In this document: positions 199-18,378 of the stretch, in pieces
Layout: each line of letters opens with the position of its first letter
How positions within the stretch are numbered: the stretch's first letter is position 1
Assembly: GCA_017516465.1 (NCBI GenBank)
Contig: JAFXCR010000006.1
Span: 1 to 56,820, forward strand
Source of the DNA: Ruminococcus sp.
GTDB lineage: Bacteria; Bacillota; Clostridia; Oscillospirales; Ruminococcaceae
DNA length: 56,820 nucleotides
Direction: 5' to 3'
Notes under the pieces: model-generated
What the model was told of the DNA's origin: nothing
The model's database searches: none
The model's input: only the letters and a program-made list of their open reading frames with translations
Position numbers and translations under genes: made by a program

Positions 199-1173
199 TT
201 ACTGTTCGGGAGTATCGTTTCCGATAACGCCTTTAAGTCCGGCTGCAAGACCAGCAAGTCCCTGAATTTCGCTGGGAATGATAATCTTTGTAGCCTTTCC
301 GTCAGCTGCCTTAGCGAAGGATTCAAGAGACTTGAGCTGAATAACTCTCTCATTAGGATTAGCACTGTTCAGCTTAACGATACTGTCTGCAAGAGCCTGC
401 TGTACCATTTCAATAGCCTTTGCTTCACCGGTAGCTTCAAGGATTTTCTGCTCTCTTACAGCGTCAGCTCTGAGGATCATTGCCTGTTTCTGAGCTTCAG
501 CTTCAAGAATCTGTGCTTCCTTCTTAGCCTGAGCACGAAGAATCTGTGATTCCTTTTCACCTTCTGCAACGAGGATCTGTGACTTCTTGTCACCCTCTGC
601 CTGAAGAATCTTCTCACGACGCTCACGTTCAGCCTTCATCTGCTTTTCCATGGCATCCTGAATCTCACGAGGAGGAAGAATATTTTTAAGCTCCACACGA
701 TTTACCTTGATACCCCAGCGGTCAGTAGCCTGATCGAGGATCGAAGTAATCTTTGTATTGATGATATCTCTTGATGTTAGAGTTGCGTCGAGTTCCATTT
801 CACCGATGATATTACGGAGTGTTGTAGCAGAAAGATTCTCGATAGCTGCGAGAGGTCTTTCAACACCGTAGATATACTGTTTTGCATCTGTAACCTGATA
901 GAATACAACTGTATCTATCTGCATTGTAACGTTATCCTTTGTGATAACAGGCTGCGGCTTGAAGTCAACAACCTTTTCTTTAAGTGAAACCTTGCCGGCA
1001 ATTCTGTCGATGAACGGTACAAGTACATGAATACCTGTTTCCCATTCAGCGTGGAATGAACCAAGTCTTTCAATTACGAATACATGAGCCTGAGGAACAA
1101 TCCTGAAGCTTCTGATGATAACAATGAGAAGAAAAATTATTACTGATGCAACTATAATTCCGATAATGTCCAT
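199..1173 (-). CDS. SPFH/band-7 protein, slipin (paraslipin/QmcA-like)
   Basis: A 324-residue membrane-anchored stomatin-like protein. Residues 2-22 form one N-terminal transmembrane helix. An SPFH domain follows at about 24-180, then a long charged coiled coil at about 170-250 rich in AEGEK/AEAQK-type heptads, and a Gly/Ala-rich tail. This is the standard slipin layout and length. Family members oligomerise on the membrane and organise microdomains or hold membrane proteases; no enzymatic activity is expected. It lies 12 bases downstream of the nfeD-family gene, the classic NfeD-slipin pair, and is almost certainly co-transcribed with it. The family call is firm; the specific role is unknown. 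Confidence 0.9.
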   Translation of the reverse strand: MDIIGIIVASVIIFLLIVIIRSFRIVPQAHVFVIERLGSFHAEWETGIHVLVPFIDRIAGKVSLKEKVVDFKPQPVITKDNVTMQIDTVVFYQVTDAKQYIYGVERPLAAIENLSATTLRNIIGEMELDATLTSRDIINTKITSILDQATDRWGIKVNRVELKNILPPREIQDAMEKQMKAERERREKILQAEGDKKSQILVAEGEKESQILRAQAKKEAQILEAEAQKQAMILRADAVREQKILEATGEAKAIEMVQQALADSIVKLNSANPNERVIQLKSLESFAKAADGKATKIIIPSEIQGLAGLAAGLKGVIGNDTPEQ

Positions 1174-1185
1174 ATTTACCTCCGA

Positions 1186-1638
1186 TTATACATTTGTTTT
1201 ATTTTTTAATGATACTGACAGTCTTGTACCTGTCACCTTTTTGATGACTACTATACTGTCCACAGGAATAATCTGTCCTTCGTTATGCGGAACTGCATTC
1301 CAGTCCACATCGCCGAGTCTGACACGTCCTGTACCCTTGTCACGGTCTATCTCCTCGATAACCGTAGCAGTCATGCCGACGTAAAGCTCCTGATTTGTAG
1401 AAACATGACCTTTATTACGTCTCTTTTTGAGCCACGGAAATGTAACAAGCAGAAAAATTCCGGATACAATTATGAATACACCAAGCTGTGAAAGCAGCGT
1501 AGTTCCCTCAAATATCACGGTAAAGAGCATCGTAACGAGAGCGCCGAGTGCAAACCACACAGATATAAGCTGTACAGTTGCAAGCTCTGCCACAACAAAA
1601 GCCACAAATACTGCTGCCCAGAACAATACTTCAAACAT
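1186..1638 (-). CDS. NfeD family membrane protein
   Basis: A 150-residue short-form NfeD protein. The first ~70 residues hold hydrophobic helices (about 2-23, 28-45 and 48-68), then a basic KKRRNK patch, then a C-terminal OB-fold-like domain at about 85-148 containing GKGRVRLGDVDW-type strands. The short form lacks the ClpP-like protease domain of long NfeD. Its partner slipin is directly downstream. Together they are thought to form membrane microdomain or quality-control assemblies. A strong promoter lies upstream at 1703-1731 and the ATG has a good purine-rich ribosome site. Confidence 0.88.
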   Translation of the reverse strand: MFEVLFWAAVFVAFVVAELATVQLISVWFALGALVTMLFTVIFEGTTLLSQLGVFIIVSGIFLLVTFPWLKKRRNKGHVSTNQELYVGMTATVIEEIDRDKGTGRVRLGDVDWNAVPHNEGQIIPVDSIVVIKKVTGTRLSVSLKNKTNV

Positions 1639-7248: not shown

Positions 7249-7279
7249 TTCATATTTTAATTAAAGAAGGTTGAATAAA

Positions 7280-8347
7280 ATGGAAATCAAATTCACAAAA
7301 GCAGAAACTTTAAAAAACAAACCCCAGCCCGGCGATAAGCTCGGCTTCGGACACATCTTCACTGACTATATGCTCGTAATGCCCTACGATGAAGGTCAGG
7401 GCTGGCATGATCCTGAGATCAGACCTTACGGCAATTTTGAGATCTCCCCTGCCGCTATGTGTCTCCACTACGGTCAGACTGTTTTTGAAGGTCTCAAGGC
7501 TTACAGAACTGCTGACAACAAAATCCAGCTTTTCCGTCCTGAAGAAAACTTCAAGAGACTCAACAGTTCAAACGACAGACTTGTTATTCCTGAGCTTCCT
7601 GTTGAACTCGGCATGGAATGCCTTATGGAACTTCTTAAAATCGAAAAGGACTGGGTTCCAGCAAATGACGGCGAATCCCTCTATATCAGACCTTTCATCT
7701 TCGCTTGCGATCCCTTCCTCGGCGTAAAGCCCGGTGATCACTATCTCTTTATGATCATTCTTTCTCCTTCCGGTGCTTACTACGAAAGCGGTCTCAACCC
7801 CGTTGATATCTACGTTGAAAACAAGTATGTCCGTGCAGTAAGAGGCGGTATGGGCTTCGCTAAGACAGGCGGAAACTACGCTGCATCTCTTATCGGTCAG
7901 GATGAGGCTCACAAGCAGAACTACGCTCAGGTTCTCTGGCTCGACGGCGTTGAGCAGAAGTACATTGAAGAAGTTGGTGCTATGAACATCTTCTTCGTTA
8001 TCGACGGCGAAGTTGTAACTCCGGCACTTCAGGGAAGTATTCTCCCCGGAATTACAAGAAAATCTGCTCTTGATGTCTGCAAGTCTAAGGGAATTCCTGT
8101 TTCTGAAAGAAGAATCTCTATTCAGGAAATCTCCGACGCTTACGATGCAGGCAAGCTTAATGAGGTATTCGGTACAGGAACTGCTGCTGTAATCTCCCCT
8201 GTTGGCCACCTTAAATGGGGCGATAAGGTAATGGAAATCAACGGCAATAAAATCGGCAATATCTCACAGATGCTCTATGATACAATGACTGGTATCCAGT
8301 GGGGTAAGATTGAAGATACCTTCGGCTGGACTGTTGAAGTAAAATAA
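7280..8347 (+). CDS. ilvE: Branched-chain amino acid aminotransferase
   Basis: A 355-residue class IV PLP aminotransferase of the long (BCAT group II) type. The PLP lysine is K195 in [12 protein letters not shown]. The substrate and cofactor segments [20 protein letters not shown] and the late [12 protein letters not shown] are present. It interconverts Leu, Ile and Val with their 2-oxo acids. In rumen organisms this can also aminate keto acids made from branched volatile fatty acids. The ATG at 7280 follows AAAGAAGG; an upstream in-frame TTG has no advantage. A stem-loop terminator follows. Confidence 0.96.
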
Positions 8348-8363
8348 AAGCTTTCGTACTTAT

Positions 8364-8392
8364 CAGGGAAGACCTCTCCGAGGTTTTCCCTG
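8364..8392 (+). terminator. Terminator of ilvE
   Basis: A hairpin of CAGGGAA..ACCT against AGGT..TTCCCTG with a small loop is followed by a T-rich run (TATTTTTATTATTTT). Confidence 0.75.
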
Positions 8393-8415
8393 TATTTTTA
8401 TTATTTTCAGAATCC

Positions 8416-8444
8416 TGTTACCTGCTGGTGATATTCTGCGTCTA
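8416..8444 (+). promoter_or_regulatory. Putative ECF-type promoter upstream of the sigma factor
   Basis: TGTTAC (8416-8421), 17 bases, then CGTCTA (8439-8444). The pattern resembles TGAAAC-N16/17-CGTC promoters used by ECF sigma factors, and no good sigma-A promoter is visible here. It could mark autoregulation by the downstream gene. Confidence 0.4.
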
Positions 8445-8467
8445 TAAGAGTGAAAGGAGTTGATGAC

Positions 8468-9025
8468 ATGGACGACGCCGCTATAATTTCGCTATATTTC
8501 GAGCGTTCGCAGTCAGCGATAAAAGAATCCCGCAGCAAATACGGTTTCTATTGCCGCACTATTTCCATGAACATCCTGCACTGTCGTGAGGACGCAGATG
8601 AATGTCTCAATGACACATGGATGAAAGCCTGGGACATCATACCGCCGCAGAAGCCTTGTTGTCTTTCGGCATTTTTCGGAAAAATTGTCAGAAATATCTC
8701 CCTCAGTATGTGGCGGAAAAAACATTCTCAGAAAAGAAAAAACAACGAAACTTCGCTCTGTCTCGATGAACTTTCTGAGTGCATTCCGGAACAGAATTCA
8801 GGCTCTGTTGCTGAGGATTTGGAACTTAAAGACGCTCTTGACCGCTTTCTTGAAGCTCTTGAACAAAACGCAAGAATCATTTTCATGAAGCGGTATTGGT
8901 ACATCATACCTGTGAAAAAAATCGCAGAGGAGCTTTCAATGAACGAGGGTGCAGTCAAAATGTCACTGCTCCGGACACGAAAGAAGCTCCGGCAGTTTCT
9001 TGATGAGGAGGGCATCTATCTATGA
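8468..9025 (+). CDS. ECF-type RNA polymerase sigma factor
   Basis: A 185-residue sigma-70 family protein with only regions 2 and 4. Region 2 is about residues 22-88 (DADECLNDTWMKAWD). Region 4 is about 115-180, with the helix-turn-helix PVKKIAEELSMNEGAVKMSLLRTRKKL. The ATG at 8468 is preferred because AAAGGAG lies 9 bases before it; the in-frame GTG at 8450 would swallow that site. The downstream membrane protein overlaps by four bases (ATGA), the usual arrangement for a sigma and its anti-sigma factor. Confidence 0.9.
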   Translation: MDDAAIISLYFERSQSAIKESRSKYGFYCRTISMNILHCREDADECLNDTWMKAWDIIPPQKPCCLSAFFGKIVRNISLSMWRKKHSQKRKNNETSLCLDELSECIPEQNSGSVAEDLELKDALDRFLEALEQNARIIFMKRYWYIIPVKKIAEELSMNEGAVKMSLLRTRKKLRQFLDEEGIYL

Positions 9026-10242
9026 AAAAGAACGAAAGACTTTTGCAGCAGCTCGGCGATGTGAATGACAAATTCATTGCCGAAGCAAATCCAAAGCCCC
9101 CAAAAAACCGCATTAAATGGGCACTTATCGGAGCTATGGGTACTGCCGCAGCCGGCATTATCATATGGCAGGGAGTAAAAAATATCCCCGACAAAAAGTC
9201 GGAAAAATCAGTCTCTGAAACTAAAAAATACGGCGAAATTATTGAGTTTCCTGAAAATACCGGAGAGCTTGAAATTATCCGCACGACTGATCCAGGAGGC
9301 GGCGGAATGGGCTTTGAAGGTTTTATGGCTTATGATGTTTCCACGCTTCTTGACGGAAATCCAAGCCGTGAAAACTGCGAATTTACGGAGCTTCCGGTCT
9401 TTATAGAACCCAGCAATGAAATTTATAGCCATGGAAATCTTCCCGTTTATACCATGGATGAAATGGAAGAAAGACTGAAAGATGTTGCCGGTCTGCTTAC
9501 TGACGAGGAATTTACGCCTGTCGACAGGCATCCCAACGGCGACTATTATAAGGCAAAAGCAGGAAATATCAAGCTTTCAATGTACTCGTATTCAAGCAGA
9601 ATATATATTGAATTTGAAAATTCTGTCGATCTTCCTCCGGAATATGACATTTGTAATACGACGGACAAAGATCATGCGGAAAGATCGCTGGAATATCTGG
9701 GCGAAAAATACAGGGATGTCATACGGATGGATAACCCCACGCCCACAGTTTTTACTGATTTTGATATCTACAATGAACCGCTTACAACGTTTGCTCTTTA
9801 TGACAATTCAGAAGATCCGCTGACGGCGCTAATTAACTACAATTTGCGCAAGGTTTACTTCTATGGCGGCAGAAAGCTTAGCACAATTTCTATATACAAC
9901 AATTATGATTACAAGGAATTCGCAGGAATGTACCCTGTTATCAGCTATGACGAGGCATATGAAAAACTTATCAGCGGAGATTACTACACTACTGTATGGG
10001 ACGAGCATTATCTCCCCGACGGAATAAATACAGATGAGATATTCTTTACCGGAATCAGCTACAACCGCACTAATGACTATAAATATACACTGCCGTATTA
10101 TCGTTTTCTTATTGAGCTTCATCCCGAAAGAACAGGCGATATGAAACTTGCTGACGGTATGAGGGAATTCGGTGCATATTATGTTCCGGCGGTTTCTCCG
10201 GATTATCTTGTAATTGAAAACATGGATGTTGCTTTCAACTGA
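9022..10242 (+). CDS. Putative anti-sigma factor / membrane sensor
   Basis: A 406-residue protein with a cytosolic N-terminus of about 31 residues, one transmembrane helix at about 32-52 (IKWALIGAMGTAAAGIIIW), and a ~350-residue extracellular domain rich in Tyr, Asp and Pro. No zinc-binding HxxxCxxC motif is seen. Translational coupling to the ECF sigma gene suggests it holds the sigma factor inactive and senses an external signal. No family was recognised for the outer domain; the role comes from context only. Confidence 0.65.
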   Translation: MKKNERLLQQLGDVNDKFIAEANPKPPKNRIKWALIGAMGTAAAGIIIWQGVKNIPDKKSEKSVSETKKYGEIIEFPENTGELEIIRTTDPGGGGMGFEGFMAYDVSTLLDGNPSRENCEFTELPVFIEPSNEIYSHGNLPVYTMDEMEERLKDVAGLLTDEEFTPVDRHPNGDYYKAKAGNIKLSMYSYSSRIYIEFENSVDLPPEYDICNTTDKDHAERSLEYLGEKYRDVIRMDNPTPTVFTDFDIYNEPLTTFALYDNSEDPLTALINYNLRKVYFYGGRKLSTISIYNNYDYKEFAGMYPVISYDEAYEKLISGDYYTTVWDEHYLPDGINTDEIFFTGISYNRTNDYKYTLPYYRFLIELHPERTGDMKLADGMREFGAYYVPAVSPDYLVIENMDVAFN

Positions 10243-10286
10243 GCACTCCTCCGGAATTTCAGACGACTTCTATTCAATACAATATT

Positions 10287-10313
10287 AAAAGGGACGTATG
10301 AAACGTCCCTTTT
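10287..10313. terminator. Bidirectional terminator
   Basis: AAAAGGGACGT (10287-10297) pairs with ACGTCCCTTTT (10303-10313) around a 5-base loop, serving the membrane-sensor gene on the plus strand and the XRE gene on the minus strand. Confidence 0.85.
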
Positions 10314-10315
10314 TC

Positions 10316-10522
10316 TTATCGGTAAAATACCGGATTATCCGTGCGTTCAAGCAGATAGTCAATTGACACATTAAAATAGTCTGCCAGAGCAATAAGAGTC
10401 TGATAATCGGCTTCACGCTCACCGCTTTCATATCGGCTGATAGAATTCTGATTTAGATTTAATTCAATAGCAAGCCTTTGCTGAGTAATATTTCTTGATT
10501 TTCGTAATTCCTTCAATCTCAT
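10316..10522 (-). CDS. XRE-family transcriptional regulator (68 aa)
   Basis: A 68-residue protein that is essentially one Cro/C1-type helix-turn-helix: LRKSRNITQQRLAIELNLNQNSISRYESG, followed by the typical ADYFNVSIDYLLERTD helix. This family binds inverted repeats and commonly represses its own promoter. It is divergent from the small membrane protein at 10618, and the space between holds a perfect 9-bp inverted repeat inside a consensus promoter, so autoregulation and control of the neighbour are likely. Confidence 0.92.
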   Translation of the reverse strand: MRLKELRKSRNITQQRLAIELNLNQNSISRYESGEREADYQTLIALADYFNVSIDYLLERTDNPVFYR

Positions 10523-10543
10523 AAAAAAACCTTTTAATTGTTC

Positions 10544-10572
10544 TTGACATTATTATACCATTATGGTATAAT
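10544..10572 (+). promoter_or_regulatory. Consensus promoter of the 129-aa membrane protein
   Basis: TTGACA (10544-10549), 17 bases, TATAAT (10567-10572): a perfect 12/12 housekeeping promoter. The spacer and -10 are covered by the inverted repeat at 10551-10573, so repression by steric block is expected. Confidence 0.85.
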
Positions 10573-10573
10573 A
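10551..10573. promoter_or_regulatory. Operator-like inverted repeat
   Basis: TATTATACC (10551-10559) and GGTATAATA (10565-10573) are perfect inverted copies with a 5-base spacer. A further half-site, GGTATA, lies at 10589-10594 near the expected transcription start. The location between two divergent genes, one encoding an XRE protein, makes this the likely binding site. Confidence 0.75.
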
Positions 10574-10617
10574 AAATTATCCCGAATCGGTATATTTTAT
10601 GCAAAAGGAGGTGGATT

Positions 10618-11007
10618 ATGAAAACAACAAAATTAGTGCTTGGTATTCTTACAATAATTATATCTTGTTTCGTTCTTTTTCAATCTTGTGCAGCCGGAGT
10701 TGCTAATACATTAGAAGAAAACGGCGAATCAAGCGGTTCAGGCGGTGCATTCGTTGCTTTTCTCATGCTCGCCGGCGCCATAACTATGATATCCGGTCGC
10801 AAAAACACTGGAAAAGGACCATCAATCGCCGGAGTAGTTATTTTTTTAATAGCCGCATTGATTGCCTTTACCTCTGCCGGTTCTGTATTCAAAGACCTGA
10901 TCGTTTGGGGCGTATTATGTCTGATTCTTGCAGCTATCAACCTCATTGCTGCTAAGCGTTCAAAGAAAAGCGACAACGATACCAACGAAAAAAATGACGA
11001 GAAATAA
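10618..11007 (+). CDS. Small four-helix membrane protein
   Basis: A 129-residue protein with four hydrophobic segments (about 5-27, 44-61, 69-88 and 93-112) and a charged, Lys/Asp/Glu-rich tail (KRSKKSDNDTNEK). The ATG follows an ideal AAGGAGGTGG. It has a perfect sigma-A promoter overlapped by a probable XRE operator, so it should be strongly expressed when derepressed. No family was recognised. Confidence 0.8.
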   Translation: MKTTKLVLGILTIIISCFVLFQSCAAGVANTLEENGESSGSGGAFVAFLMLAGAITMISGRKNTGKGPSIAGVVIFLIAALIAFTSAGSVFKDLIVWGVLCLILAAINLIAAKRSKKSDNDTNEKNDEK

Positions 11008-11010
11008 AGA

Positions 11011-11045
11011 AATCCCATATCTCACACAATGCGAGATATGGGATT
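11011..11045. terminator. Bidirectional terminator
   Basis: A perfect 13-bp stem (AATCCCATATCTC / GAGATATGGGATT) with a 9-base loop, followed by TTTTCTT on the plus strand. It separates the membrane protein from the convergent TIR-SPFH operon. Confidence 0.9.
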
Positions 11046-11059
11046 TTCTTGGTTTACTA

Positions 11060-11758
11060 TTACTTTGAAGCCTTACAAGCTGTATTTCTGTCATCGAGTG
11101 CAATATTCACTGACTTGCAAAGTTCCTTTACTCCGGAATACTGTGCGGAGCAAACAGCTGATTCAAGCTGTCCGAACAGTGTTGAGAGCTTATACTCTGC
11201 ATCAGCAATTGCCGGACTGCTTACAGGATCACTGTATGTAATCTTTTCTGCAAGCTTTTTAAGCTCTGACTGAAGTGCAGGATCAGTTGTCTTGTTTGTA
11301 AGATTATTTGCTCTGAGTGCAAGCGACTTCATAAGTCCTGTATTCATAGCAGTTGTTGTTTCAAGGTTTGTGATAGCAGTTCTTGCCATGTTTGCAGACA
11401 TTCCGAAAAGCATTGCGATTCCGAAAACTGCTATGCAGATGAGACATGCAAGCCATACAGGAACATTTCCGCCGTCACCGAGAATAATGAGAACTGCACT
11501 GATTATCGTCTGCACTACAAGGTAGGAAATACCTATCTTGAACAGAGGATATCCGAGAACCTTGCTTTTAAGGTCAGTTCCGACAGGATATGCAAGTTTG
11601 AATACTGGAATCTGAACTGCAATTGCTAAAAGCTCTGCGATATAGCCAATCCAGAATGTGGGTTCGGATTTATCAAAGGGTGCCAGAAAAACTACAGCCG
11701 AGAAAATCGCAGCCACTATAAGCAGAACGACTACAACTTGTGATCTAATATTTTTCAT
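11060..11758 (-). CDS. Four-helix membrane protein, last gene of the TIR-SPFH operon
   Basis: A 232-residue protein with four predicted transmembrane helices (about 7-26, 35-57, 70-92 and 100-120) and a cytosolic C-terminal helical domain of about 110 residues (RAMTAI-like amphipathic start, then SELKKLAEKITYSDP and GVKELCKSVNIAL). No family was recognised. It lies 17 bases after the SPFH-zinc-ribbon gene in the same orientation. The likely job is to act as the membrane platform for that SPFH scaffold, an inference from position alone. Confidence 0.7.
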   Translation of the reverse strand: MKNIRSQVVVVLLIVAAIFSAVVFLAPFDKSEPTFWIGYIAELLAIAVQIPVFKLAYPVGTDLKSKVLGYPLFKIGISYLVVQTIISAVLIILGDGGNVPVWLACLICIAVFGIAMLFGMSANMARTAITNLETTTAMNTGLMKSLALRANNLTNKTTDPALQSELKKLAEKITYSDPVSSPAIADAEYKLSTLFGQLESAVCSAQYSGVKELCKSVNIALDDRNTACKASK

Positions 11759-11775
11759 AATTATTCTCCCTTCCC

Positions 11776-13170
11776 TTACTTACCGGATTCCGGTTTTGCC
11801 TTTCCACAGCCACCGCAGAACTTAGTTGTGTTTTCAGTTCCGCATTCAGTGCATTTCCATGATTCACTGTCTGCCGGCTTAGGCTTTCCGCAGTTTCCGC
11901 AGAATTTTGTTGTATTGCTTGTTCCGCAGCCGCATACCCATGAATCAGGGCTTACGGCCTGTGGCTTGGGCTTTCCGCAGCCGCCGCAGAATTTTGTTGT
12001 GTTGGTTGTTCCGCATGAGCACATCCATGAATCTGCCTGTGCCGGATTTATAGATTCTGAAATTGCTCCTGTCATCGGATTCATAACGTTCTTTGTCATG
12101 TCAACAACGCCGCTCATTGCGCCGAGTGCAATTCCAAGACCAGCGATATCGCCTACTGCGCTTCCGCCGGCACTTCCGCCCATATTCTTGGCAGCTTCAA
12201 CACCGATCTCACGAGCTGTCTGTTCACGGTATGTGAAGCCCTTCATTCTCATTTCTTCAGCCTCAGCAGCAGCCTTCAGACGAAGTGCCTGTGCCTCACC
12301 CTGAGCAGAAATAACCTTGAGCTGAGCTTCTGTTTCAGCCTCAACAGCCATACGCTCTCTTGCCTTTTCAGCCTCAGCCTTGAGGATTTCCTCCTGACGG
12401 ATCTTCAGGAACATATCAGCGTGCTGCTGTTTAAGACGTCTGTAATTCGGATCATCATCAGGAGTCATAACTGTCTCAACGTAGAATTCCGGCATTATAA
12501 GACCGTAATCATCGAGCGTATCGTTGATGTTTACACGGAGACTGTCTGAGATTTCCTCAAGATGCTCGTCAATTTCAAGGATATTGATATCGCAGCTCTT
12601 GATGATCTTGGCAAGACTGCTCTTAACCTTTGTGATTATCATTGCCTTGAACTTTGATACTGCGGGACCATATTCACTTGTATTGGACGACATATCTCTG
12701 TAAGACATTCCGTCAGCAGTACCAACAAGCTTAATGAGAAGCTTTCTGGCATCATTTACAAGCAAACTGAACTGACCGCAAGCTCCGATTTCGATGGGAA
12801 GTCCTGATTCCGGCTCAATGAAGCGTACCTTTGAGTCTGTACCCCATTTTATTCCCATCTGGACTGCCTTGTTTACAAAATAAACTTCAGCGTGGAATAT
12901 AGTTTCAGCATTTGTAGGAAGCTGGAACGCTTTGTTAAAGAACGGAAGATTCTGTGTTTCAAGTGTATGTCTTCCGGCACCGAAAAGGTCAAGAGCCATA
13001 CCGTCACGGAAGAATACAGCCTCCTGTGCTTCGTGAACGATAAGCTGAGTTCCGAGATTGAAGTTCTCGATTTTATGCTTGTGAACAAGATCCTGAGATG
13101 TACCGTCATACATTATGACGCTTGCAACACCATTATCAGGGAGCTTGGGTTCGTCTTTTTTACCAAACAT
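11776..13170 (-). CDS. SPFH (YdjI/virion-core-like) protein with three zinc ribbons
   Basis: A 464-residue protein. The SPFH domain spans about 20-280 and includes AVFFRDGMALDLFGAGRHTLET, typical of the YdjI/'virion core protein' branch rather than slipins. A coiled coil follows at about 255-320 (EKARERMAVEAETEAQ), then a Gly/Ala-rich hydrophobic stretch, and finally three near-identical zinc ribbons starting near 391, 419 and 443, each CxC(x)G...KFCGxCGKPKP. There is no transmembrane helix, so it probably sits on the inner membrane face. In Bacillus subtilis the SPFH protein YdjI works with zinc-ribbon membrane partners in PspA membrane-stress recruitment. Here it is preceded by two zinc-ribbon/TIR membrane proteins and followed by a four-helix protein. 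Confidence 0.88.
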   Translation of the reverse strand: MFGKKDEPKLPDNGVASVIMYDGTSQDLVHKHKIENFNLGTQLIVHEAQEAVFFRDGMALDLFGAGRHTLETQNLPFFNKAFQLPTNAETIFHAEVYFVNKAVQMGIKWGTDSKVRFIEPESGLPIEIGACGQFSLLVNDARKLLIKLVGTADGMSYRDMSSNTSEYGPAVSKFKAMIITKVKSSLAKIIKSCDINILEIDEHLEEISDSLRVNINDTLDDYGLIMPEFYVETVMTPDDDPNYRRLKQQHADMFLKIRQEEILKAEAEKARERMAVEAETEAQLKVISAQGEAQALRLKAAAEAEEMRMKGFTYREQTAREIGVEAAKNMGGSAGGSAVGDIAGLGIALGAMSGVVDMTKNVMNPMTGAISESINPAQADSWMCSCGTTNTTKFCGGCGKPKPQAVSPDSWVCGCGTSNTTKFCGNCGKPKPADSESWKCTECGTENTTKFCGGCGKAKPESGK

Positions 13171-13194
13171 TATTATTTTCCTCCTTTAATGTAA

Positions 13195-15312
13195 TTACTT
13201 TTTTATTTTGCGATAGTAAAGCTTTCCGGAAACAACTGCAAGAAATACCGCTGCACAATGAAGTGCAAGTACAACAGCTGCATATATTATCGATTCTGTG
13301 GTATTATATACCAGATACGTTGTCATGATCGTTACAACGGCAATTGCAAGTTTCTGCATCTGCCATCTGCTTATTTTTACCGTTCCTTTTGCCGCCCACT
13401 CTATCATTATAAGCGACGCCACGAGTATACAGGAAAATATCACTATCATCGGTCGTTCAGAACCAAAAAGTACAAAATTATACTTTATTGCGCTGTCTGC
13501 GTTCTTGAATGTCAATGCCGCCGAAACTGCCGCTATCAGTGAGAAGAAAATCACCATGCTGGTTTTCTTCTTTTCACGCATCTGATTTTCAGCTGCTCTT
13601 ACAAGAAGTTCCTTTTCCATGAGTACAGCTTCATTTCTGCGCCGTTCTTCTTCAAGATGTTCCTGTTCGTATTCCGATGTTTCATCGAACTTCATAGCAC
13701 ATGTGAATGCATGACGTCCGGAATCCTTATAGCCGTTTATTTCCTCAAAAAGCTTCTGAACGTATGAGAAATCATCCGCACTGTGTGCGTGCCTCAGCAG
13801 TTCGTATGCTTTCTGGTATTTTTCCTCCAGCTTTTCATTGCATATGGCTATCAGATCTGCACTTCTCGGGTCAGCTCCGGCTTCTTCAAGAATCTTTTTG
13901 GCTTTGATATAATCTCTGCCGTCAGTAGAATTCTCAACCAGTGCCTTTGCTTCAAGATAATCATTCTCGCCTATCTCACGAAGCTGTCTTTCAGCCCGAT
14001 TTTTTCCTTCTGCCGCACCACTGTACGCACCAAGCGTTTCAAAGATGCTTATCGCTTTGACAAGATTGCTTTGTGAAGCATTTCCTTCCGTAAGAGATAC
14101 GGCATAGAGATAGCGTGAATTCATTTCGTATGTACAAAGACGTTTTTTCAGAGCGTCGTCAGCAAATCTGTATGCCTTTTCGTAATTATCATTTCTGCCT
14201 ATTGGTCTGCGGACATTCATAAGCTGATTCTCATCAGTAAGTTTCAGCTCTGCAAGAAGCTTTCCAAGATATGCTTCTGCGTTTTTCGGATCGGCATCAA
14301 GTGCCTTTTCGCAGTATTTCTCTGCCTGATCGAAAATTCCATCCTCCAGAAAGATCTTTGCTCTTTCGACGAGTGACTCTGCACTGAAAACAGTTCCTCC
14401 GGCAGCAGCCATCATATCACTTCCGAGAATTTTCTCAATTCCCCTGATAAGATCCTGTATATATCCGACTTTTGACACATCCTGTGACTGGAGTGCCTGA
14501 AGTTCCTGTGGAAGATCATATGGACTCATATCACGGTAGCACGGTATGATATCCTTATCATCGCTCTTTTCCGCAAGAGCAAGATATCTTCCCCATTCAT
14601 TTTTCACCCATACTGAATTGAAGTTCTCTGGCTTTGTGCCGACTACAAGCATTATCTTTGCACTGTTGAGTGCTGAGAATATATATGGTTCGTATTCCTT
14701 TCCGAGCTTATCCTCAAGAGTTATTCTCGAAAAGAATACCCTGTAACCCTTATCAGCAAGAGCTTCGTAAATATCCTGTGCGATAACACTGTCCGTAGTA
14801 CGGTTTCCAACGCTGTCAGTTTCCTTGTAACAGATGAAGATATCAAATGGTTCTTCTTTTCTCGATATATCAAGAAGTTTCTGCTGAACTGCATTTATAT
14901 ATGCCGCTTCTTCACGATAGACTGATTCCGCCGCACCATCGGCATAGCGTACAGCCATTGCAAAATCCGGATCCTCCAGAATTGAACGATACTGCGTTCT
15001 GTGACAGGTCGCAATTCTTTTTCCGGTTCTCGGATCCTTTACATATTCTATACCATAACGGCATAGACAAATTCCCCAATGTGCTTCGGCTTCTTCCGGA
15101 TATTCGGTAATGATATTTTCATATACCATCGCCGCACTGTCGAAATCATTTTTCAGCCGAAAGCTGTTTGCTCTGTCAAAGAGCTGTCTCAGCTTTTCGT
15201 TGTCAGTCTGCGGAAGCGTCTGTACTGTTCCGCAGTAACCGCACCGGCAGACTGTTTCCGACTGTGCCGGTTCAAGCGAGCCGCCGCACATTTTACATTT
15301 ATATACTGCCAT
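13195..15312 (-). CDS. Zinc ribbon-TIR-TPR membrane protein
   Basis: A 705-residue protein. Residues 1-30 are a zinc ribbon (CKMCGG...CRCGYCG). A helical TPR-like part covers about 45-150. A TIR domain covers about 155-290, starting FDIFICYKETD. The candidate catalytic Glu of NAD-cleaving TIR domains is E239 in SVWVKNEWGRYL. TPR-like repeats follow (DGIFDQAEKYCEKALDADPKNAEAYLG near 325), then more helices and four transmembrane segments in the last ~115 residues. The ATG at 15312 (MAVYKCKMCGG) is preferred over the upstream GTG because AGGGGG sits 5 bases before it and the paralogue starts the same way. The stop of the paralogue lies only 9 bases upstream. Confidence 0.88.
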   Translation of the reverse strand: MAVYKCKMCGGSLEPAQSETVCRCGYCGTVQTLPQTDNEKLRQLFDRANSFRLKNDFDSAAMVYENIITEYPEEAEAHWGICLCRYGIEYVKDPRTGKRIATCHRTQYRSILEDPDFAMAVRYADGAAESVYREEAAYINAVQQKLLDISRKEEPFDIFICYKETDSVGNRTTDSVIAQDIYEALADKGYRVFFSRITLEDKLGKEYEPYIFSALNSAKIMLVVGTKPENFNSVWVKNEWGRYLALAEKSDDKDIIPCYRDMSPYDLPQELQALQSQDVSKVGYIQDLIRGIEKILGSDMMAAAGGTVFSAESLVERAKIFLEDGIFDQAEKYCEKALDADPKNAEAYLGKLLAELKLTDENQLMNVRRPIGRNDNYEKAYRFADDALKKRLCTYEMNSRYLYAVSLTEGNASQSNLVKAISIFETLGAYSGAAEGKNRAERQLREIGENDYLEAKALVENSTDGRDYIKAKKILEEAGADPRSADLIAICNEKLEEKYQKAYELLRHAHSADDFSYVQKLFEEINGYKDSGRHAFTCAMKFDETSEYEQEHLEEERRRNEAVLMEKELLVRAAENQMREKKKTSMVIFFSLIAAVSAALTFKNADSAIKYNFVLFGSERPMIVIFSCILVASLIMIEWAAKGTVKISRWQMQKLAIAVVTIMTTYLVYNTTESIIYAAVVLALHCAAVFLAVVSGKLYYRKIKK

Positions 15313-15321
15313 ATGCACCCC

Positions 15322-16896
15322 CTATTTTTTTATCCCCATAATAATAATAATAGCTACAACAAAAACAATAAAGAACACAGGTAAAATTCCGGAAACATTT
15401 CCGAAAACGGATAAAACGCCTATAAAGAAAGGCAAAAAGAAGAATAACATGAAGAATATAAAAAATATAAGCATAACCTTCTTCTTCGCATTACTATGTT
15501 TCTCTATACTCTCATCGAAATGAAACCTTATAATTCTTTCGCTTGCCATTCTGACTGATTCTTTTTCTTTTACTGCATTCCTTATCAAAGAAACTATCCC
15601 TTCATACGCATGAACGTATTCCTCATGCTCTGCTCCTCTTGAAAATGCCATCGCATTTTTTATAGAATGCTTAAGAACATACTGTACTCTTTTCCGGTAT
15701 AACTGATCATCGCTGACATCATATCCATAACCCTTTATGTAGTAATCAGCAAGTACACTGACCTTCTGCGGAGAATAAAGCTCCTGAAGATCATGACAGT
15801 AATGCTCTGCAAGGAATTTATAATAATATGCCTTGGGATAATCGGGATCCCTGTCAAGAAGTCTGTCGCAATATTCCTCAACGCCTTCAAAGTCGCTGGC
15901 ATTGAAAAGAATAGATATTCTCTGGAGCATTTTACGCTCATCTATCGTTGAATCATTGCTGTCATGAGATTTTGAAGCCTGTGCGTATGAAGCCTCTGCA
16001 CTATTTCCGACAACCTTTCTCACGCCACGGATAACATCATTGATAAAGCCTATTTTCGACATATCCTGTGCCTGAAAGTGAGCAAACTCCTCAGGAAGAT
16101 CGTAAGGATCCATATCCTTGTAGCATGGAATTAGCAGTCTGTTTTTATCATTCTGTGCGAATTTAAGAAAACGGCTCCACTCATTTTTAAGCCATACAGA
16201 CTGAAAATATTCAGGCTTTGTACCAACAACAAGCATTACCCGTGCACTTGAAAGAGCAGAGTATATATAGGGTTCGTACTCCTGTCCAAGCTTATCCTCA
16301 AGTGTTATAGCTGCAAAAAACGCCTTTATTCCTGCCTGTTCAAGCTGATGATAAATATCGTTTGCTATAACACTGTCAGGAGTTCTTCTTCCATTTTCAT
16401 CGGTCTGCTTATAGCAGATAAAAACATCAAAGCCTTTTTCATTGCGTACAATATCAAGGATTTTCCGCTGTATCCGGTCTATCTCCTCTGCCTCACTGAT
16501 GTACAGATTCCTTCTTGCCTGTTCAGCATAGCTTATAGCCGATTTATAGTCGATATCAGCAAGTACTGATTCCATCTGTGTCCGATGACAGGTAGGAAGC
16601 TTCTTTCCCGTTGCCGGATCTGTAACATATTCTATACCATATTTACAGAGAACGAGTCCCCAGTATGCCTCGGAATCATCAGGATTGTCCTGAACGATTC
16701 TTTCATATATTTCCTGTGCCTTATCGAAGTCGCGATTAATTCTCAGATTATTTGCACGGTTGAAAAGATTAGTATTTATTTCATCGCGGGTTTTGGTTAT
16801 TGTCTGTGCAGTACCGCAGTACTCGCATATACAGACGTTCACGTTATCGGAAGCGTTAAGAGTTCCACCGCACATTTTACATTTTAATACTGCCAT
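15322..16896 (-). CDS. Zinc ribbon-TIR-TPR membrane protein (paralogue, operon leader)
   Basis: A 524-residue paralogue of the next gene. It has the same order: zinc ribbon at 6-28 (CKMCGG...CEYCG), helical TPR-like region, TIR domain at about 155-290 (GFDVFICYKQTD), with E239 in SVWLKNEWSRFL at the identical position. One TPR-like unit near 345 follows, then two C-terminal transmembrane helices (about 475-520). The first ~300 residues are closely similar to the paralogue; the C-terminal parts differ in length and in number of membrane spans. The ATG at 16896 has GAGGG before it; an in-frame ATG 18 bases upstream has no ribosome site. A good promoter lies upstream at 16936-16964. Confidence 0.88.
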   Translation of the reverse strand: MAVLKCKMCGGTLNASDNVNVCICEYCGTAQTITKTRDEINTNLFNRANNLRINRDFDKAQEIYERIVQDNPDDSEAYWGLVLCKYGIEYVTDPATGKKLPTCHRTQMESVLADIDYKSAISYAEQARRNLYISEAEEIDRIQRKILDIVRNEKGFDVFICYKQTDENGRRTPDSVIANDIYHQLEQAGIKAFFAAITLEDKLGQEYEPYIYSALSSARVMLVVGTKPEYFQSVWLKNEWSRFLKFAQNDKNRLLIPCYKDMDPYDLPEEFAHFQAQDMSKIGFINDVIRGVRKVVGNSAEASYAQASKSHDSNDSTIDERKMLQRISILFNASDFEGVEEYCDRLLDRDPDYPKAYYYKFLAEHYCHDLQELYSPQKVSVLADYYIKGYGYDVSDDQLYRKRVQYVLKHSIKNAMAFSRGAEHEEYVHAYEGIVSLIRNAVKEKESVRMASERIIRFHFDESIEKHSNAKKKVMLIFFIFFMLFFFLPFFIGVLSVFGNVSGILPVFFIVFVVAIIIIMGIKK

Positions 16897-16935
16897 TTCA
16901 GCCCTCTTTTCCATACAAATTGTACATTTTCAACT

Positions 16936-16964
16936 ATTATACCACAACATTTTACAAATTACAA
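16936..16964 (-). promoter_or_regulatory. Promoter of the TIR-SPFH operon
   Basis: On the minus strand TTGTAA (16959-16964), 17 bases, TATAAT (16936-16941), about 40 bases before the first TIR gene. No other strong promoter was seen inside the operon, whose gene gaps are 9, 24 and 17 bases. Confidence 0.7.
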
Positions 16965-17004
16965 CCTTTTTTAATAATATTATTTAAATTGTCATCGTTT
17001 TGTC

Positions 17005-17033
17005 TTTACTTCGACACTGATTCATGTTATAAT
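17005..17033 (+). promoter_or_regulatory. Promoter of the GH25 lysozyme gene
   Basis: TTTACT (17005-17010), 17 bases, TATAAT (17028-17033), about 30 bases before the start codon. Confidence 0.6.
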
Positions 17034-17064
17034 AAATGAGTACCATAATTATAAAGGAGATTCT

Positions 17065-18378
17065 ATGAAATATAAATTATCTGCCACAATTCTTGCATTT
17101 TTATGTATATCATCCGTATCGTGCGGCAAGAACAGTTCTTCTGAAAAAAATACCGTAAAAGAAATCAGTACCGCTTCTGAGAACATTACCGAACCCACTT
17201 CTGAAGTATCAACGACAATCACCACGACAACAACATCCACATCAACAAAAACTACTACAACTGTCACTACTGCCCCGAAGCCCACAGAACCTGTAATTCT
17301 CAGCGGACTGGAATCTTTATCCGTATACGAAGAAATAAGCATAAACAGCTTTCTCACCGAGGCAAATGTAATCATCCTCAATGGAAACGAGCTTATTGAC
17401 ACTTCTGAAACCGGAGAAAAAACAGTAACTGTAAAATATTCGCAGAATGATACCGAGGGCGAGAAGAAGCTCACTTATAAAGTAGAGGATACCGAAGCTC
17501 CGATAATACTGAATTCTGGCTGGAACCCATACCACTGCATCGGAACAGCTTTTGATCTTAACAATTATGTCGGATTCGGCGACAATTATGACAGTAATCC
17601 CATCCTTACATACGACGGTTACATTGACGCAAACACTATCGGAGACTATCCGCTGACAGCTCACGTTACTGACAGCTCCGGCAATTCAACCAGCTTTGAC
17701 GTTACTATTTCTGTTGTGAACTCAATCCCTACGCCTCCGGATGAAAGACAGCGTGTGGATTTCAGCGAATTCGTAAGTATCTACGGCGGTGAAGGAAAAC
17801 GCGTCGGAATTGATGTTTCCACATGGCAGGGAGCAATAGACTGGAACGCTGTCCGTGACGCAGGATGCCAGTTTGCTGTCATCCGAATCGGCTACTGTTA
17901 CAGCGATATCACTATGGATGACCGTTTTTACGCTAACATTGAAGGAGCAAGAGCTGCCGGCATTGATCTCAGCGTTTATTTCTATACAACCGCAAATACT
18001 GAAGATGAAATAAAAGAACAGGCACGATGGATAGCCGAAACTCTCAACGGTGCGGAAATGAATCTTCCGATCGGCTTCGACTGGGAAGAATTCGGCGGAT
18101 TCCAGAAATACGGCATGAGTCTGAAGGAAATCAATGATCTGTATGCTCTTTTCCACGATGAAATGGCAGCTTACGGCTACGATACAATGCTTTACAGCAG
18201 CAAGAATTTCCTCAACAACGTCTGGAATGAAAACAGCAAGACTATCTCTCCGGTATGGCTTGCACATTATGTTGAAGATACCGACTACAATGGAGATTAC
18301 ACCTTCTGGCAGCAAAGCAGCTGCGGAAGAATTGCAGGAATCTACGGGGATGTAGATATGAATATCATGTATGAATAA
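17065..18378 (+). CDS. GH25 family lysozyme, lipoprotein with Thr-rich linker
   Basis: A 437-residue secreted enzyme. A lipoprotein signal ends in SSVSC at residue ~20, then a Thr-rich linker (about 45-75), a bacterial Ig/HYR-like pair of beta domains (about 75-225, containing GEKTVTVKYSQND and DTEAPIILNSGW), and a C-terminal GH25 catalytic domain from about 245. GIDVSTWQGAIDW and FDWEEFGG supply the catalytic acidic residues. GH25 enzymes cut the muramic acid-GlcNAc bond in peptidoglycan. Being lipid-anchored it probably remodels the cell's own wall or attacks nearby bacteria. It is a single gene with its own promoter and terminator. Confidence 0.92.
   Translation: MKYKLSATILAFLCISSVSCGKNSSSEKNTVKEISTASENITEPTSEVSTTITTTTTSTSTKTTTTVTTAPKPTEPVILSGLESLSVYEEISINSFLTEANVIILNGNELIDTSETGEKTVTVKYSQNDTEGEKKLTYKVEDTEAPIILNSGWNPYHCIGTAFDLNNYVGFGDNYDSNPILTYDGYIDANTIGDYPLTAHVTDSSGNSTSFDVTISVVNSIPTPPDERQRVDFSEFVSIYGGEGKRVGIDVSTWQGAIDWNAVRDAGCQFAVIRIGYCYSDITMDDRFYANIEGARAAGIDLSVYFYTTANTEDEIKEQARWIAETLNGAEMNLPIGFDWEEFGGFQKYGMSLKEINDLYALFHDEMAAYGYDTMLYSSKNFLNNVWNENSKTISPVWLAHYVEDTDYNGDYTFWQQSSCGRIAGIYGDVDMNIMYE

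Follow-up and report, generated by a model that had tools for sequence, protein, structure and literature searches.

The window analysed here is a stretch of 56,820 nucleotides from Ruminococcus sp. (GCA_017516465.1, contig JAFXCR010000006.1, positions 1 to 56,820). Its minus strand carries, between positions 16914 and 11060, four close-packed genes in the order TIRA, TIRB, SPFH and MEM4. The first two encode TIR proteins with a zinc ribbon, tetratricopeptide repeats (TPR) and membrane helices, the third a protein of the SPFH type and the fourth a small membrane protein. SPFH and MEM4 are a conserved pair of genes that, in the class to which the genome belongs, is frequently joined by zinc ribbon-TPR-TIR proteins. 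Judged from its sequence, the operon would be a scaffolded cassette of membrane-anchored TIR receptors, most likely immune, that cleave nicotinamide adenine dinucleotide (NAD) on sensing, a reading held with about even confidence. Its features are as follows.

16936 to 16964, minus strand: promoter-like TTGTAA-17-tgTATAAT, with TG before the second hexamer (consensus match only)
15322 to 16914, minus strand: TIRA; zinc ribbon, TPR, TIR, TPR/helical region, two membrane helices
13195 to 15318, minus strand: TIRB; TIRA paralogue whose helical middle is longer, three membrane helices called
11776 to 13170, minus strand: SPFH (Band_7_1); no called membrane helix, three C-terminal zinc ribbons
11060 to 11758, minus strand: MEM4; four predicted membrane helices and a C-terminal half
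11010 to 11046, minus strand: intrinsic-terminator-like hairpin after MEM4, 17 pairs, T-rich tail

The open reading frames (ORFs) as listed are separated by 3 (TIRA-TIRB), 24 (TIRB-SPFH) and 17 bases (SPFH-MEM4), all on one strand, which agrees with the tightly spaced gene set of a first-pass annotation of this DNA. The single promoter it assumed is less secure. A promoter-like site does lie upstream of TIRA, 21 bases from the ORF as listed and 39 from the probable start, ATG 16896, but such sites are near chance in the window (22 found against a shuffled mean of 14.6, standard deviation (sd) 4.4). Terminator-like sites number 8 (shuffled mean 4.7, sd 1.7). As read from the sequence, the TIRA start is preceded by AGAGGG, which resembles a ribosome-binding site, and a similar stretch precedes the probable TIRB start, ATG 15312.

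Both TIR proteins match the TIR_2 Pfam profile above its cut-off of 28 bits (TIRA, E 2.9e-13, 50.8 bits, residues 164-286; TIRB, E 7.3e-12, 46.3 bits) and both contain Pfam TPRs. TIRB is 47% identical to TIRA over TIRA residues 5-428. An N-terminal CxxC...CxxC pattern is read in each (C12, C15, C30 and C33 in TIRA). By hydropathy, TIRA has two membrane helices (480-498 and 510-528) and three are called in TIRB (586-604, 615-633 and 677-695). Both proteins end in these helices, with only short loops outside. They are therefore paralogous and membrane-anchored, as first annotated, and the zinc ribbons attributed to TIRA, TIRB and SPFH can likewise be read from the sequence. Comparison with PADLOC models gave nothing strong (best PDC-S66, 6.3e-5, 20.5 bits), and NCBIfam models of Thoeris or retron TIRs were matched only weakly, at scores far under their cut-offs (ThcB4, 22.3 bits against 220). 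A 426-amino-acid (aa) zinc ribbon-TPR paralogue with no TIR match is encoded elsewhere in the same genome (G000:C35:55820-56263, L071:6984-8264; G, C and L denote genomes, contigs and loci).

As far as sequence and model allow, the TIR folds are real and their glutamate motif is kept. The AlphaFold model of TIRA (50 sequences, mean pLDDT 89.3, pTM 0.58) shows a zinc ribbon, TPR helices, a TIR alpha/beta domain, a second helical repeat and a long helix running into the membrane part. In a Foldseek search with this model, MyD88, Mal, SPARTA TIR-APAZ and the NAD-consuming TIR of A. baumannii were matched at probability 1.00 and TIR-STING at 0.99 (MyD88 TIR, TMt up to 0.73; SPARTA TIR-APAZ, root-mean-square deviation 2.4). 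No match in this search reached E < 0.001; TPR proteins rank first and the best TIR has E 0.0037. A PDB profile search with the whole TIR alignment was discarded as a means of identifying the domain, its 29 hits being mainly TPR proteins with no TIR among them. The motif W-x-x-N-E-W is kept in all of the 121 TIR proteins longer than 400 aa from the window and 79 related loci (see below), and the N-terminal zinc-ribbon cysteine pattern in 119. Together with the Pfam and Foldseek matches, this bears out the expected TIR fold. The motif glutamate aligns with a glutamate of the flax L6 TIR (phmmer, E 0.031), presumably the catalytic one in L6 and SARM1. The conserved glutamate of NAD-cleaving TIRs is thus present, at the W..xE position.

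An alternative reading is that the TIR is a pure interaction domain and that TIRA and TIRB are scaffolding adaptors recruiting clients through TIR-TIR contacts, with no NAD chemistry. It is consistent with the top-ranked TIR structures in Foldseek, which are MyD88 TIRs and hence adaptor domains, and with cassettes that encode several TIR proteins, some with membrane helices and some lacking them, which recalls receptor-adaptor pairs. We consider it improbable. The invariant motif fits an active site better, as does purifying selection (TIRA against three close relatives: dN/dS, the ratio of nonsynonymous to synonymous divergence, 0.06-0.10 for the TIR and 0.03-0.08 for the zinc ribbon-TPR part), and bacterial enzyme TIRs were matched too. 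The membrane part of TIRA evolves faster (0.18-0.47). TIRA is only 74% identical to its counterpart in L076, whereas SPFH is 99% identical. Across window positions 7271-18378, divergence from L076 changes in a step, with synonymous divergence (dS) of 0.11-0.18 for MEM4, SPFH and an aminotransferase gene, 0.29 for TIRB and 1.2-1.3 for TIRA and a muramidase gene. Rapid diversifying selection on TIRA was therefore rejected: dS is raised as well (1.2 against 0.13), and an equal step appears at the muramidase gene; this argues for exchange of segments rather than selection on the TIR.

Thoeris ThsB, SPARTA TIR-APAZ, TIR-STING and SpbK are bacterial TIR defence NADases, and most known bacterial TIR immune proteins are soluble. 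The proteins described here share with these NADases the TIR fold and the position of the glutamate, and the model matches SPARTA, TIR-STING and A. baumannii TIR structures. They differ by their membrane anchor, their N-terminal zinc ribbon and TPRs and the accompanying SPFH/MEM4 scaffold genes, and the operon includes no nucleotide-sensing effector gene. No match to the system models of Thoeris and the other TIR systems listed in PADLOC was obtained at cut-off.

SPFH belongs to the Band_7_1 family (Pfam E 3.2e-33). Three zinc ribbons are read at its C-terminus and hydropathy calls no membrane helix. The family is also represented in the B. subtilis control genome, by a member that we take to be YdjI, and a second Band_7_1 gene with zinc ribbons occurs elsewhere in the window's genome. 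MEM4 has no Pfam family above cut-off and no TPM match at E up to 0.5; its identification as a YdjH/TPM protein was accordingly rejected. Assignment to a solved fold was also rejected, the best PDB profile hit (E 0.0047) covering 58 positions of a transcription regulator and not being convincing. Annotated initially as a four-helix protein, MEM4 does have four membrane helices by hydropathy, and these are followed by a C-terminal half without one. In that half D177 and R224 (motifs SDP and RNxxCK) are invariant in 58 aligned relatives. In L214:2557-4074 and L217:1-1278, MEM4 carries, as a fusion, an additional membrane helix and a tail that by eye resembles DUF6273.

The gene set recurs far beyond this strain. 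In a sample of 341 genomes of the window's class (its own included), the TIR protein was found in 21 at E 1e-30 and MEM4 in 32 at E 1e-8. A MEM4 match lies on the same contig within 3 kilobases (kb) in 17 of the 21 TIR-positive genomes, although in three of these (G157, G251 and G433) it spans only about the first 140 model positions. Of the other four, one is a partial TIR-protein match (G161), one is a match at a contig edge (G252) and two (G250 and G423) lack any MEM4 match. Only 2 of 299 genomes matched in a phylum sample, the window's own and one already found in the class. Among 148 genomes of the same family (own included), 12 have the TIR protein, though one of them matches weakly and in the zinc-ribbon part; SPFH and MEM4 genes adjoin it in 7 of the 12.

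A scan of a collection of 84,980 species genomes returned at least 577 relatives, of which the best 79 loci were studied; being the closest relatives they form a biased set, and the even class sample is the better guide. They are mostly Clostridia by name (Ruminococcus, Lachnospiraceae, Oscillospiraceae and others), with a few other names, and many come from animal guts to judge from their isolate names. SPFH is present in 59 of these best 79 loci, MEM4 in 55, both in 53 and either in 61, many loci being cut by contig ends. Where the flanks are complete (31 loci), the figures are 27 for SPFH, 26 for MEM4 and 26 for both. In all of the 59 loci that combine scaffold and TIR genes the nearest gap between them is at most 3 kb, and scaffold genes are never on the other strand. 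TIR genes lie only downstream of the scaffold in 30 of these loci, only upstream, as in the window, in 16, on both sides in 12 and are unplaced in one. The exact order of the window recurs in eight loci (L075-L082). The gene order expected from the first pass is thus kept outside this strain, but it varies. Two to four TIR genes longer than 400 aa occur in 35 of the 79 loci.

The window's TIRA and TIRB group in a clade without DUF6273, RCC1 or LRR tails; many relatives carry such modules. Among the 121 TIR proteins, one membrane helix is called in 61, several in 25 and none in 35. The TIR-facing side is the more positive in 56 of the 61 single-helix proteins, which points to a TIR inside and a tail outside. 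Of the tails that extend 100 aa or more beyond the last helix (n=54), 28 match DUF6273, 12 RCC1_2 and 3 LRR_5, the LRR tails being of the BspA type. The helix-less proteins give the same family matches (DUF6273 8, RCC1_2 4, LRR_5 3), which suggests that tails can also be inside; the view that all tails are outside was rejected on account of these 35 proteins. When tails were classed by simple motifs (n=51: DUF6273 30, RCC1 15, LRR 6) and placed on a tree of N-terminal halves, 16 changes were counted over the 51 tips, against a mean of 18.7 and a lowest value of 14 in 200 label shuffles. Tail class is therefore almost not inherited among DUF6273, RCC1 and LRR. In pairs whose N-terminal halves are 88-89% identical, one partner has a DUF6273 and the other an LRR tail. 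The C-terminal module is thus exchanged between relatives, mostly behind a membrane helix with a charge placing the TIR inside.

This organization recalls animal Toll-like receptors and plant TIR-LRR proteins, in that many relatives have a TIR inside, a single helix and a variable repeat tail. However, here the TIR is N-terminal and the sensor C-terminal, a zinc ribbon and TPRs are present, and the two proteins of the window have no such tail. The likeness is an analogy only, and no shared descent of the architecture is claimed. The tails also allow a different use, in which the receptors would recognise neighbours, diet polymers or the animal host through glycans or proteins outside the cell and switch metabolism rather than act in immunity. 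The tail kinds are adhesin-like (BspA LRR, RCC1, DUF6273), and the Clostridia and animal-gut names of the relatives fit such a use. We regard it as very improbable, since some tails are cytoplasmic by prediction and TIR output is not otherwise known to serve in nutrient sensing.

The scaffold pair also occurs without TIR genes. Of the 32 MEM4 genomes of the class sample, 15 gave no TIR protein at the thresholds applied. Twenty further scaffold neighbourhoods were collected, 18 of them with SPFH or MEM4 (two, L228 and L233, belong to genomes that carry a TIR cassette at another place). These 18 loci have no adjoining TIR, and in 9 of them a same-strand zinc-ribbon gene lies within two genes. 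Zinc-ribbon ORFs make up 10 of 63 neighbours of SPFH/MEM4 against 5 of 303 controls, a count in which L215 and L228 look like one system shared by two genomes and contig ends truncate several of the 18 loci. The partners without TIR include zinc ribbon-transmembrane-DUF6591 (ZnR-TM-DUF6591) and zinc ribbon-TPR proteins, among others. The zinc ribbons that the first-pass annotation had noted in all operon proteins but the last are thus over-represented beside SPFH-MEM4 in general. As a rule, SPFH-MEM4 seems to be accompanied by a zinc-ribbon client, of which the TIR receptors are one frequent kind. In L230:2770-6438 (minus strand) a 1222-aa zinc ribbon-TPR protein, with no Pfam TIR match where a TIR would be expected, is encoded near an SPFH gene.

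A comparable arrangement exists in B. subtilis. According to PMC8581546 and PMC11237479, YdjI is a soluble SPFH protein with a C-terminal zinc ribbon whose localisation depends on two membrane proteins, YdjG and YdjH, and YdjG carries zinc ribbons; as stated in PMC8581546, YdjI acts in alkali shock. Like pspA-ydjGHI, the operon encodes a helix-less SPFH protein with C-terminal zinc ribbons beside membrane proteins. In contrast, it has no PspA (the single PspA match of the genome is on contig C39) and no TPM protein of the YdjH type, its zinc-ribbon partners carry TIR and TPR, and a separate zinc-ribbon Band_7_1 gene and PspA are found elsewhere in the genome. The likeness to ydjFGHI initially proposed consequently holds for SPFH and its Pfam family but does not extend to PspA or MEM4. 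Given these differences, the operon does not correspond to ydjFGHI with TIR domains added.

Nevertheless the resemblance supports the main alternative, an envelope-stress module of the ydjGHI type in which SPFH-MEM4 would organise membrane domains and the TIR proteins would be non-killing signalling or assembly parts reporting the membrane state. The B. subtilis member of the SPFH family, the dependence of YdjI on two membrane proteins and its role in alkali shock (PMC8581546), and the scaffold pairs found beside zinc-ribbon proteins such as ZnR-TM-DUF6591 in place of TIR are all consistent with it, as are the genomic surroundings described below. It accounts less well for the patchy presence (21 of 341 class genomes and 2 of 299 phylum genomes), the several TIR genes in 35 of 79 loci with their swappable tails, the fully kept glutamate motif, the defence-type genes inside some cassettes and the lack of PspA in the operon. 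We regard it as unlikely, although its probability is appreciable.

Several observations weigh against an immune receptor cassette. The operon of the window and of L075-L077 is flanked by housekeeping genes (a branched-chain aminotransferase on one side and GH25-pyruvate kinase-helicase on the other), in synteny conserved as far as the contigs reach. In a small PADLOC test at E 1e-10, 145 of 472 ORFs flanking 76 loci within 5 kb were compared with 139 of 246 control ORFs drawn from 19 regions in genomes of the same family; 58 families were found for the 145 flanking ORFs against 80 for the 139 controls, a comparison that is only rough because the output counts families and not ORFs with a hit. 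It shows no defence enrichment, and the suspected association with defence islands was not upheld. Unlike many mobile defence systems, TIRA is without a match among 50,697 phage records and 72,556 plasmid records. No helix is called in 35 of the 121 TIR proteins, of which 14 have RCC1, LRR or DUF6273 motifs, and with six tail classes over all 121 tips the class follows the tree (56 changes, shuffled mean 73.0, lowest 66). Finally, the defence-type genes lodged in cassettes are mostly single-locus, one (L110) is on the opposite strand, the AbiH match of L090 is under the Pfam cut-off, and there is no matched control.

These genes are among 39 ORFs that lie between core genes of the cassettes, a set that includes spurious and opposite-strand ORFs. 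In L128:5786-6991 a reverse transcriptase of the UG26 class lies between the TIR gene and SPFH on the same strand (PADLOC E 6.2e-159). Others are AbiH/SIR2-like (L090, L110), a HEPN protein, DUF4365 and DUF2971, all kinds that occur in conflict systems. In the absence of a matched control, their interpretation as an enrichment was rejected. A small gene, alike by eye, lies just upstream of SPFH in five loci (L091:13912, L093:13711, L098:13238, L102:7266 and L122:5825); the L091 copy matches the ribbon-helix-helix profile RHH_1 and may be a regulator.

A mobile origin was also rejected. TIRA has no phage or plasmid match, a single relative was found in viral contigs (with SPFH and MEM4, beside a gene resembling a serine recombinase), and the four phage records matched by SPFH cover 17-31% of its length, at the zinc-ribbon end only. 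Two neighbours recur near related operons. The gene divergent from TIRA (window 17065-18378, plus strand) encodes a GH25 muramidase-like protein with an immunoglobulin-like surface domain and is kept beside the operon in L075-L077. A stomatin-like gene and its small NfeD-like membrane partner, both named by eye (window 199-1638, minus strand), lie about 15 kb from TIRA; a homologous pair is found just upstream of TIRA in L078, L079, L081 and L082, and in L080 the stomatin-like gene is found there.

Immunity against phage or another envelope attack is the most likely use, given the TIR, the exchange of tails between relatives, the patchy presence and the defence-type genes inserted in some cassettes. 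A more general envelope-sensing function is kept as the main rival because of the stable chromosomal place and the lack of defence-island enrichment. Under the immune reading, MEM4 would hold the soluble SPFH protein at the membrane, by analogy with YdjG and YdjH for YdjI, and the zinc ribbons of SPFH and the TIR proteins may serve as docking tags. The SPFH assembly would keep the TIR receptors clustered yet inactive. TIR enzymes are switched on by stacking, so that an SPFH array would be a natural control point. The trigger may be a ligand bound by the variable tail or, in the tail-less clade of the window, a change in the membrane or in a partner. Since TIRA and TIRB have only short loops outside, their sensor may be the membrane bundle itself or another protein. 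Once triggered, the TIR domains would stack, form a composite active site and cleave NAD, and the cell would be arrested or killed.

More broadly, these proteins may represent a class of cell-surface immune receptors of type II-like topology, with an enzymatic TIR inside and swappable RCC1, BspA LRR or DUF6273 sensors outside, often in tandem and organised by SPFH-MEM4 through zinc-ribbon tags. SPFH-MEM4 with a zinc ribbon would then be a plug-in platform of general use, and TIR receptors one of its outputs. This generalization is tentative, and we place its probability just short of even. A literature search whose coverage left out bioRxiv and most subscription journals found no account of a system that joins TIR and SPFH, with or without a zinc ribbon, which agrees with the initial impression that the combination is not a described one. 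Most of the domains are known; what is, as far as searched, undescribed is the cassette, MEM4 as its marker and the swapping of tails.

If correct, the system would be a bacterial counterpart of receptor-type innate immunity, with a TIR tied to the membrane, a flotillin-like scaffold and exchangeable tails. It would give the SPFH scaffold a concrete role, that of holding NAD-cleaving receptors in check, and the zinc-ribbon rule offers a test case for the recruitment of SPFH clients. Present in 21 of 341 genomes of the class, the TIR proteins are common enough to matter for phage-host biology there.

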